Of a stretch of 64,000 nt of DNA, positions 31,020 through 33,251 are shown piece by piece. The first letter of the stretch is position 1. Every line of letters begins with the position of its first letter. Below the pieces are notes generated by a model. That model saw nothing but the letters and a program-made list of their open reading frames with translations, was not told the DNA's origin and did not search any database. The position numbers were made by a program, and so were the translations under genes. Origin of the DNA: Mesotoga prima MesG1.Ag.4.2 (lineage in GTDB: Bacteria; Thermotogota; Thermotogae; Petrotogales; Kosmotogaceae); assembly GCF_000147715.2 (NCBI RefSeq), contig NC_017934.1, positions 1,302,001-1,366,000 of the forward strand, given 5' to 3'.

Positions 31020-31901
31020 TCAGTAGAGATCTTCAAGAAGGGAAGAGAGTGTTTCTGTATCTATCATCCCGAGAAGACTAATCGCAGAGTTCTCCGAGAG
31101 TCTCTCAATCGCGTAACTGTAACCGTTTGCCTGGGCCATCTGAGCAGAAAACTTCTGAAGATAGTCCGGTTCGGTGTTGAATGAGAAGTATAGAACCATT
31201 CGCCCATACTCGATCGAATACATCAGAACAGTGTAAAGATATGTCTTTCCGTCAGTTGCGAAATCCATCGAAGACCAGGCAAAGTGCTTTTCCAGCATTG
31301 CCTCTGAAAAGTATATTGGAGGACGAATTATTATCATGCCTTCAGTAGCGTTCGACAATTTCGACAAAGCTTCGTGAGACATTTCGGAGTAATTCCTGTA
31401 ACTCGCGCTAATAGTATGAAATGGATACGACTTAACCAGCTTCAACAACTTGTAGCTGTCATCATAAGTAACCTCGAAAGATAGGTTCCCCGATGATATG
31501 GTGATTTTTCTGCTGTTGGGAAGATCCAGAAAGAGATCGACCACATAGCTCTTCCTGTTCACCAGGTCAATGAAGTTGTCTTCCACATCTTTGATTTTTG
31601 TGAGCGGCTCGAAAGCAATACTTCTTGTGCGAAAGATAGCAAAATGGCCTGAGCTGTTTCTCACCCAGCCAAATTCACCCTTTGCAGAAGAATACGATGT
31701 AACCAGTTTATAGGGACCGGATTTGATTACTCGCTCGTTCTTTGCAGTAGTAACTATTCCGCTCTCTTGTACGTATCTATCTACTTCATACGAAGAGTTC
31801 TTCAAAACATCTATCAGGGTAGTTAACTCTTCGACAGCATCCTTTCCAACCGCCAGCCCGACAACAAGCAACAGGACAACGAGTACGGACAGTTTTTTCA
31901 C
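31020..31901 (-). CDS. Exported protein, possible LolA/RseB-like envelope sensor
   Basis: A 293-residue protein with a clear Sec signal peptide (KKLSVLVVLLLVVGLAVG) and a long, mostly beta-strand remainder, consistent with the LolA/LppX/RseB fold: short paired strands such as GPYKLVTSYSS, KSYVVDLFL and LSFEVTYDDSY. It has no lipobox. It is the third gene of an ECF sigma / anti-sigma operon, 39 bases after the anti-sigma gene. In proteobacteria the same slot holds RseB, which binds the periplasmic part of the anti-sigma factor. The fold is judged by eye and the role is inferred from position. Confidence 0.55.
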   Translation of the reverse strand: MKKLSVLVVLLLVVGLAVGKDAVEELTTLIDVLKNSSYEVDRYVQESGIVTTAKNERVIKSGPYKLVTSYSSAKGEFGWVRNSSGHFAIFRTRSIAFEPLTKIKDVEDNFIDLVNRKSYVVDLFLDLPNSRKITISSGNLSFEVTYDDSYKLLKLVKSYPFHTISASYRNYSEMSHEALSKLSNATEGMIIIRPPIYFSEAMLEKHFAWSSMDFATDGKTYLYTVLMYSIEYGRMVLYFSFNTEPDYLQKFSAQMAQANGYSYAIERLSENSAISLLGMIDTETLSSLLEDLY

Positions 31902-31940
31902 GGCGATTTCACTCCTTCTGTGTCTTAGAGCGTCTATAGA

Positions 31941-32435
31941 TTAGTAGGTCGTGCTAATTCCAGAGATCTCAAAATCATTCTCCACAGCTGATTCACTAAG
32001 AAAGCCGAGCGAACGCTCCATTTCCTTCTCCATCATTACTAGATTATTCCCCTCTGCTTCGTCCTGCGCAAAGGCATTCAGATTGACCTTGAGCCTTTCA
32101 TTCAGACTCGAGCTACTGCCTAGGACATCTGCGAGCTGGTAAAGCTCTCCCTTTTTCTTAATAAGAATAGTGTTACCCGTGAAGAACGAAACCGAAAAGA
32201 TACCCAGTACCAAACAGGCAGCTACTGTACCGAGAATTTTGTAAGGTCTGCTCTTTAGCTTCCTTACACTGCTCAGAGTTCTTTTCTTCAGTTCATCAGA
32301 AGGCCTGTAGCAACAACTCTCTTTCAGAGCGTCTATAGCCTTCACATAGCCCTTTAGTTCTTTCCTTTCATCTACCCTCAGCTTATCAAACGGGATCTCA
32401 CGATCCAAAATGCGGACAAACCTTTCTTCATCCAA
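31941..32435 (-). CDS. Membrane-anchored anti-sigma factor (putative)
   Basis: A 164-residue protein with a charged, helical cytoplasmic N-terminus (about 1-75), one transmembrane helix (ILGTVAACLVLGIFSVSFF, about 77-96) and an extracytoplasmic tail. This is the normal layout of an anti-sigma factor for an ECF sigma. No HxxxCxxC zinc motif is present, so it is not a ZAS-type. TTG starts it behind GGAGGTAGG and overlaps the sigma gene stop by eight bases, indicating coupled synthesis of sigma and antagonist. The identification rests on position and topology. Confidence 0.72.
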   Translation of the reverse strand: MDEERFVRILDREIPFDKLRVDERKELKGYVKAIDALKESCCYRPSDELKKRTLSSVRKLKSRPYKILGTVAACLVLGIFSVSFFTGNTILIKKKGELYQLADVLGSSSSLNERLKVNLNAFAQDEAEGNNLVMMEKEMERSLGFLSESAVENDFEISGISTTY

Positions 32436-32988
32436 TGTAACCTACCTCCTCGAGAAGCTCCTTAAGCCGCTTTCGAGCGTAATGCAATCTGCTCTTGACC
32501 GTGCCGACCGGTTTATCAAGTATGTCGGCTATCTCCTCGTATGACAGATCATCTATGTCTCTCAATTTAATAAGTAATCGGTCATCTTCAGCAAGTCTCT
32601 CAACAACAGACATCAGTTCCTCAAAAGAGATCTCGTCCATAACTTCTCTGAACACGTTCGTCGTTGCCGGAGGTTCAAACGTGGCCTTATCTTCACTCTC
32701 TCTGAAATCTGTAAGAAATTCGTTGTTTCTCTTCCTCTTCACCAGAGTATCCTTACAGACATTCACGGCTATTCTATAAAGCCAGGTCGAAAGTTTTGCA
32801 TCCCCACGAAACTTTCTAACGTTCTTGAAGACCTTTATAAAAACCTCCTGGATAACATCCTCAACATCATCGTATCCAAGGTATGATTTTACGACACTTC
32901 CCAACCTCGGAGCATATTCATCGTACAAGACTTCGTATGCCCAGACCTTCTTCTTCTTTAGTCCATCTATTAGCTTCTTTTCGTCCAA
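32428..32988 (-). CDS. ECF (RpoE-type) sigma factor
   Basis: Alternative sigma factor of about 186 residues with only regions 2 and 4. Region 2 has YDDVEDVIQEVFIKVFKNV and FRGDAKLSTWLYRIAVNVC; region 4 has LRDIDDLSYEEIADILDKPV then GTVKSRLHYARKRLKELL. It should direct transcription in response to envelope signals released by the membrane-bound anti-sigma encoded next. A frame start exists at GTG 32997, but TTG 32988 behind AGGGTGG fits better. A promoter matching ECF-type spacing lies directly upstream, suggesting autoregulation. Confidence 0.9.
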   Translation of the reverse strand: MDEKKLIDGLKKKKVWAYEVLYDEYAPRLGSVVKSYLGYDDVEDVIQEVFIKVFKNVRKFRGDAKLSTWLYRIAVNVCKDTLVKRKRNNEFLTDFRESEDKATFEPPATTNVFREVMDEISFEELMSVVERLAEDDRLLIKLRDIDDLSYEEIADILDKPVGTVKSRLHYARKRLKELLEEVGYIG

Positions 32989-33014
32989 CCATACCACCCT
33001 AATCTGTTCTATAT

Positions 33015-33040
33015 GACGATGAAGGAGCGAATACAGTTCA
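33015..33040 (-). promoter_or_regulatory. Candidate ECF-type autoregulatory promoter
   Basis: On the minus strand TGAACT (33040-33035) and CGTC (33018-33015) are separated by exactly 16 bases. This resembles the AAC-containing -35 and CGTC -10 elements of many ECF-dependent promoters. It lies about 25 bases before the sigma start codon, in a short leader. Confidence 0.45.
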
Positions 33041-33251
33041 ACTCCGCACGTAAATTATATAATTATCCTTAAATCAATCATAACACCGGAGAAGAGACTG
33101 CGAATCTTTTGATTAGCGAATCATGAAAAACAAGACCATCTGCAAGCAAAAACTGAAATTTTGAAAAGCAAATCACTGAGCTCCAAAAAGCCAATCATAT
33201 CGGATAAAATTAAAGGTGAAAGAACTTATTCGCATTACTGGAGGTGAAGTA

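Follow-up and report, generated by a model that had tools for sequence, protein, structure and literature searches.

A likely RseA/RseB-type envelope-stress circuit with an unclassified exported protein in the Thermotogae

In Escherichia coli, the sigma factor RpoE recognizes promoters with a GAAC-type −35 element and has a protease of the degP/htrA class as a target. The proteobacterial rpoE gene is followed by rseA, encoding the anti-sigma factor, by rseB, encoding an exported protein, and by rseC. RseA shares its inner, class I anti-sigma domain (ASDI) with ChrR, RsiW, and RskA. Helix 1 of these domains is the main contact with sigma region 4. According to the accessible text of PMC7406223, D11 of RseA contacts R149 and R178 of RpoE, and non-zinc ASDIs are also known. 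In the Thermotogae, the available part of a genome-wide study of Thermotoga maritima reports that a motif for RpoE was not found (PMC3636130), while that of a study of Kosmotoga olearia at 77 °C reports that only Kole_2150 (rpoE) and Kole_1599 (HtrA) rose among the known heat-shock genes (PMC5674127).

The locus described here lies in the window, the whole 64,000-nucleotide stretch of the Mesotoga prima genome that was analyzed. With a probability of roughly 0.7, it specifies an autoregulated envelope-stress circuit in which a class I anti-sigma factor restrains an extracytoplasmic function (ECF) sigma factor, a third protein modulates the anti-sigma factor via its outer tail, and the sigma factor acts on its own operon and htrA. 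No description of such a sigma/anti-sigma/third-protein circuit was found in searches of the open-licence literature, including the accessible portions of PMC9124969 and PMC7406223.

The operon and its promoter

The original prediction placed an ECF sigma factor, a single-pass anti-sigma factor, and an exported third protein in one operon, and domain matches, hydropathy, and a signal-like stretch bear this out (Table 1). Pfam lists regions 2 and 4 and no other sigma region for the sigma factor, which identifies it as an ECF member. It is the single ECF sigma factor of the M. prima genome (2,975,953 bases, 2 contigs), where the one further Sigma70_r2 match is an rpoD-like gene. Its translation likely starts at TTG 32988, three codons downstream of the listed GTG, because a ribosome-binding-like AGGGTGG is present and relatives start there. 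The anti-sigma gene overlaps the sigma gene by 8 bases and is separated from the third gene by 39 bases. The third protein opens with the signal-like stretch MKKLSVLVVLLLVVGLAVG, which, judged by eye, lacks a lipobox cysteine. A 97% identical locus in a Kosmotogaceae MAG was the single match of a single-protein scan.

Table 1. Positions of the operon features in the window and of RseC/MucC-family genes in family f2
Feature	Position	Strand	Details and basis
ECF sigma factor ORF	32428-32997	−	Listed from GTG 32997; Sigma70_r2 E 1.4e-18, Sigma70_r4_2 E 8.1e-16
Single-pass anti-sigma factor, 164 aa	31941-32435	−	Sequence, hydropathy, alignment of relatives
Anti-sigma transmembrane segment, residues ~67-85	32181-32237	−	Hydropathy; limits by reading the sequence
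C-terminal end of the anti-sigma outer tail, ...ISGISTTY-COOH, terminal aromatic	31944-31967	−	
Exported third protein, 293 aa	31020-31901	−	Residues 1-19 signal-like; family unnamed in the libraries searched
ECF-type operon promoter TGAACT-N16-CGTC	33015-33040	−	TGAACT 33040-33035, CGTC 33018-33015
TATAAT just upstream of the ECF −35	33054-33059	−	Sequence
RseC/MucC-family protein, f2	L083:4328-4798; L089:4316-4762; L109:4093-4518		Pfam, three loci given

The predicted promoter with ECF spacing is present and, written as TGAAC-N18-GTC for comparisons, is widely conserved. Of 59 loci sampled across the class, 56 carry the form [AT]GAAC-N17-19-GTC before the sigma gene (200 shuffles: mean 1, maximum 4), and the three loci that lack it all belong to one family, f2. 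The −35 element is TGAAC in 53 of these promoters and AGAAC in 3, and the spacer is 18 bases in 49 and 17 in 7. TGAAC-N17-19-GTC has two sites in the 64-kb window, one at the operon and the other at 1673 (minus strand), inside the rpoD-like gene. This low frequency and the conservation in 56/59 loci indicate that the operon promoter is more than a chance occurrence.

The strict pattern TGAAC-N18-GTCATATA finds a match in 9 of 10 genomes of the genus, eight of them at the operon. The match in G025 lies inside a reverse reading frame, and several matches to wider patterns, such as repeated TGAACTGAAAGGTGT-type sites, fall inside coding frames; the latter were rejected as promoters. A scan for conserved stretches with an 8-row alignment yielded no usable stretch. 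In 14 of 14 loci (L090-L103), as in the window, a TATAAT lies 4-15 bases before the ECF −35 of the sigma gene. It is possibly a housekeeping −10 element, which would provide a basal second promoter beside the stress promoter.

The anti-sigma factor and the third protein

For the window's anti-sigma factor itself, Pfam gives nothing at E ≤ 0.1 (one match, E 0.13, is at chance level), and zf-HC2 is matched by 6 of 37 aligned members. Its helix 1 reads ILDRE where RseA has LMDGE, with an aspartate corresponding to D11, which assigns it to class I. The RseA-like helix-1 motif with this aspartate is found in 36 of 56 members, while the sigma arginines matching R149 and R178 of RpoE are kept in 54/58 and 55/58, respectively. 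The expectation that the anti-sigma sequence would differ from that of proteobacteria thus holds only in part: the window protein keeps the RseA-like aspartate, and the sigma factor keeps the matching arginines. A zinc motif, HxxxCxxC, is present in the anti-sigma factors of families f6 and f7 and absent from the window protein.

Helix 1 is apparently absent from the ORFs of eight f9 members and of L053 and L093. ORFs that seem to start after helix 1 are those of L076, L078, L080, L085-L088, L053, and L093. Such proteins may have a different inhibitory contact or a missed start codon.

The outer tail is 31-94 residues long. Its terminal residue is aromatic (F, W, or Y) in 46 of 50 sequences and in 37 of 40 unique 14-residue ends. 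Common ends are VSDGF, VSDGW, VSDQF, and STTY; the exceptions end in D, K, or L. Two further loci, L064 and L107, stand outside the counts of 50, 56, and 58. L064 ends at a contig edge, and the L107 anti-sigma factor, followed on its reading frames, ends in VSDGF before a signal-like start. The PDZ domain of DegS recognizes peptides with a free aromatic C-terminus, and both HtrA and an M50 protease of M. prima have PDZ domains (Pfam). By analogy, the aromatic end of the anti-sigma factor is hypothesized to be linked to PDZ recognition.

The third protein had been described as LolA/RseB-like, a label that amounts to a guess from gene position and that the searches do not bear out. Pfam yields nothing for the window member at E ≤ 1, and its best NCBIfam match (E 0.049) is at chance level. 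When 17 and 32 members were scanned against Pfam, none matched MucB_RseB at E ≤ 1 and the best match of any kind had an E of 0.011; profiles of the family find nothing in the PDB below E ~0.07 (best about 0.075). These results weigh against true orthology of the operon with proteobacterial rpoE-rseA-rseB, in which the third protein would be a diverged RseB/MucB with a LolA-like fold. What the two operons do have in common is the order of their genes, a third protein that is exported and about 300 aa long, and the RseA-like helix 1 of many of the anti-sigma factors. There is also a weak, collinear C-terminal match to an RseB profile: hhalign gives a probability of 0.6% against five RseB sequences and, with MucB added, 0.4% at a score of 17.4, where column permutations reach 16.7 at the 95% level and 17.9 at maximum. 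Both comparisons are without power, since the LolA-RseB positive control failed in each. True orthology therefore appears somewhat doubtful on this balance.

The third protein is accordingly treated as an unclassified family, unnamed in the libraries searched (Pfam, NCBIfam, PDB). Outside its own family, its identity to the window protein is 13-19%, and profiles of the different families are clearly related to one another (hhalign probability 99.7%, E 9.6e-27). An AF2 model from a 2-row alignment reached a pLDDT of 40, too low for use.

Co-occurrence, co-loss, and the htrA target

A relative of the sigma factor is present in 93 of 103 genomes of the class. The third protein is found in 17/103 by simple comparison and in 73/103 by a joint profile, one copy each. 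Its gene adjoins the sigma gene in all 73 genomes that have it, as read in 51 loci (the window and 50 others) and indicated in the other 22 by same-strand matches 320-558 bases apart. Among genomes with the sigma factor, the third gene lies beside it in 73 of 74 outside f2 and in 0 of 19 within f2. The sole exception outside f2 is G055, where the contig ends 79 bases after the sigma match. The joint profile finds no match to the third protein in 21 of 21 f2 genomes.

Downstream genes were read in 59 loci plus the window. All 50 anti-sigma factors with a transmembrane segment, including that of the window, are accompanied by a third gene (cut by the contig end in L095). The six anti-sigma factors without such a segment all come from f2, are soluble proteins of 58-69 aa, and have no third gene (0/6); five of the six keep the helix-1 motif. 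In two further f2 loci, L089 and L109, there is no anti-sigma factor between the sigma gene and the next gene. The f2 loci read represent 8 of the 19 f2 genomes with the sigma factor. Since f2 shares an order with f1 and families f6-f11 outside that order keep the full set, loss in f2 is the simplest reading: this branch has apparently shed the membrane-bound part of the circuit. The co-loss is essentially one event. Related genomes are not independent.

This joint loss of the third gene with the tail and transmembrane segment, one event though it is, suggests that the third protein acts on the outer tail. It could instead be an effector or client under sigma control, such as an envelope chaperone or a lipid carrier, with no regulatory role toward the anti-sigma factor. 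ECF operons often carry target genes, and the export of the third protein and its rapid divergence, seen in the 13-19% identities, would suit such a role. An effector, however, would more often sit apart from the sigma gene or outlast the loss of the tail, whereas this gene is beside the sigma gene wherever it occurs and has no match in f2, where the eight loci read also lack the anti-sigma transmembrane segment and tail. Such a role is considered unlikely, and modulation of the anti-sigma factor through its tail remains the preferred reading.

Several neighboring genes are of separate interest. In the three f2 loci scanned with Pfam (L083, L089, L109), an RseC/MucC protein (PF04246, E 4e-25 to 3.5e-24) follows the sigma factor or the mini anti-sigma factor, a position that recalls the proteobacterial rpoE-rseABC order, yet without an rseB-like gene there. 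The proteins of L089 and L109 that a script had called anti-sigma factors are RseC/MucC-like and were left out, as were its "third proteins" of L081 and L084, which by eye look like homoserine kinases. Directly after the third gene of L057 is a radical-SAM protein with a helix-hairpin-helix end (L057:5256-6908; Pfam on L057 only). With look-alikes in f8, f9, and f10 loci, such a protein directly follows the third gene in many loci, though not in the window's family.

Searching elsewhere for the promoter, as had been proposed, finds it before htrA as well as before the sigma gene. Genomes were searched by pattern, and only the stretches around matches were read. The htrA set comprises 88 promoter regions from 98 genomes with an htrA match; L172 and L175, whose gene start is at a contig edge, and G006, G008, G009, G010, G011, G014, G053, and G073, without a retrieved upstream stretch, were left out. 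TGAAC-N17-19-GTC, a form fixed from the sigma promoters before htrA was counted, occurs in 45/88 regions (shuffles: mean 0.7, maximum 4). With AGAAC added after inspection of f9, the count is 54/88 regions, each from one genome (mean 1.6, maximum 7), compared with 3/84 upstream of other sigma-locus genes (Fisher p 1.5e-17, ignoring relatedness). The distance from the motif to the aligned htrA start is at most 125 bases in 50 of the 54 and 161-179 bases in four f7 sites.

By family, the htrA motif is found in f1 (15/15), f10 (14/14), f8 (10/10), f7 (4/4), f4 (1/1), f5 (1/1), and the f9 genera g29-g31 (9/9). The last are all AGAAC, as are 3 of the 4 sigma promoters read in these genera, as if promoters had changed following a change in the sigma factor. 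The motif is absent before htrA in f2 (0/20), f11 (0/3), f6 (0/1), and the f9 genera g27-g28 (0/10). The operon is nevertheless retained in f11 and g27-g28, so control of htrA is not obligatory.

In the M. prima genome, the strict pattern TGAAC-N18-GTCWWAW has five sites, against three for a backward control. Three of them precede the operon, htrA (41 bases before its start), and the gene of an exported methionine sulfoxide reductase; the other two are not followed by a gene start. In G090, WTGAACN18GTCWAA has two sites genome-wide, one of which ends 34 bases before htrA; the sigma promoter of this genome reads GTCTTA and does not match that pattern. Both autoregulation and control of an htrA/degP-class gene are thus seen at the promoter level, where the predicted core of the regulon is the operon plus htrA. 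The joint rise of rpoE and HtrA in K. olearia at 77 °C fits this core.

In three genomes of the window's genus, the promoter precedes the gene of the exported methionine sulfoxide reductase. Together with the RseC/MucC-type protein after the sigma gene in f2, this could point to a role of the sigma factor outside envelope stress, such as redox control, in which htrA would be a side target. Such a role is improbable given that htrA is the only target found in several families and that heat co-induction of rpoE and HtrA has been published (available text of PMC5674127). Envelope stress is retained as the function.

Most regions upstream of htrA that lack an ECF promoter carry T[TC]TAAG-N4-6-T[TC]TAAG, a direct repeat of 11 bp with, as a rule, a TATAAT-like box after it. 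The repeat occurs in 30/88 regions (among L166-L255), never together with the ECF motif, and 4/88 have neither element; the count is descriptive, as the pattern was derived from the same regions. From its sequence, the repeat looks like an OmpR/PhoB-type site, and where it replaces the ECF promoter, htrA appears to have come under another regulator.

Other occurrences of the motif stand apart from these counts. G002 and G003 (93% and 71% complete) have it before htrA without a sigma match, which reflects either missing sequence or a diverged sigma factor. In two f8 genera (L264, L271), it precedes a putative dnaG primase gene, identified by eye; the primase gene often heads the rpoD operon. 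The gene of a DUF1175/NlpC-P60-like protein (L128:428-1465, minus strand) starts 35 bases downstream of the motif.

The proposed circuit and known systems

In the proposed circuit, the membrane-anchored anti-sigma factor would hold the ECF sigma factor inactive through its class I, RseA-like inner domain. Outside the inner membrane, the exported third protein would modulate the anti-sigma factor via the outer tail, probably at the conserved aromatic end. Upon envelope damage, for example by heat-misfolded exported proteins, the third protein may let go or be displaced, and the tail would undergo two cleavages, the first by a periplasmic protease and the second by the PDZ-bearing M50 membrane protease. 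The freed sigma factor would transcribe its own operon and htrA. The operon, the anti-sigma topology by hydropathy, promoter conservation, the htrA target at the promoter level, and co-occurrence and co-loss support this scheme. The envelope-stress function originally predicted is well supported by the conserved promoter, the recurrence of htrA as a target, the PDZ-bearing M50 protease and HtrA, and the published co-induction. The system likely works like an RseA/RseB-type circuit, its components being an ECF sigma factor, a class I anti-sigma factor, and an unclassified third protein.

A more specific and rather unlikely variant is that the free aromatic end of the anti-sigma factor (VSDGF, VSDGW, STTY) mimics the end of a misfolded outer-membrane protein and docks to a PDZ protease. 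The third protein would then be a new kind of sensor that covers this end until envelope stress occurs, and tail and anchor would have vanished where htrA passed to another regulator and the third protein was lost.

The circuit looks like one that recurs through most of the toga-bearing group, senses envelope trouble, and switches on a clean-up protease. The Thermotogae thereby gain a candidate sigma-E-like regulon with a promoter, an anti-sigma factor, an accessory protein, and a recurring target, and the third protein adds a family unnamed in the libraries searched. Family f2 offers a natural experiment: it has lost the third protein, its loci that were read also lack the membrane part of the anti-sigma factor, and its htrA genes have a response-regulator-like repeat instead of the sigma promoter. 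Envelope-damage sensing in a toga-bearing diderm therefore becomes directly testable.

Compared with E. coli RpoE-RseA-RseB(-RseC), the order of sigma factor, anti-sigma factor, and exported protein is the same, and the GAAC-type −35 and the htrA target are shared. So are the counterparts of RseA D11 (in the window and in 36/56 members) and of RpoE R149 and R178, and a PDZ-bearing M50 protease is also encoded in M. prima. A separate DegS was not assigned because the genome has only two Trypsin_2 matches. Unlike in E. coli, RseB homology is undetectable in the third protein (Pfam, PDB, and hhalign with a failed control), the anti-sigma outer tail of 31-94 residues has a terminal aromatic, and no locus that was read has RseC beside the third gene, although an RseC/MucC protein follows the sigma gene in f2. 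With the ASDI proteins ChrR, RsiW, RskA, and RseA, the Thermotogae anti-sigma factors share the inner domain and, in f6 and f7, the zinc motif HxxxCxxC, whereas the window member lacks zinc residues; a C-terminal aromatic end is not mentioned for ASDIs in the accessible part of PMC7406223. T. maritima RpoE (Tmari_1606) and K. olearia Kole_2150 are probably members of the same circuit. Relative to the T. maritima report, in the available part of which a motif for RpoE was not found (PMC3636130), the present analysis provides a probable promoter and an htrA target.
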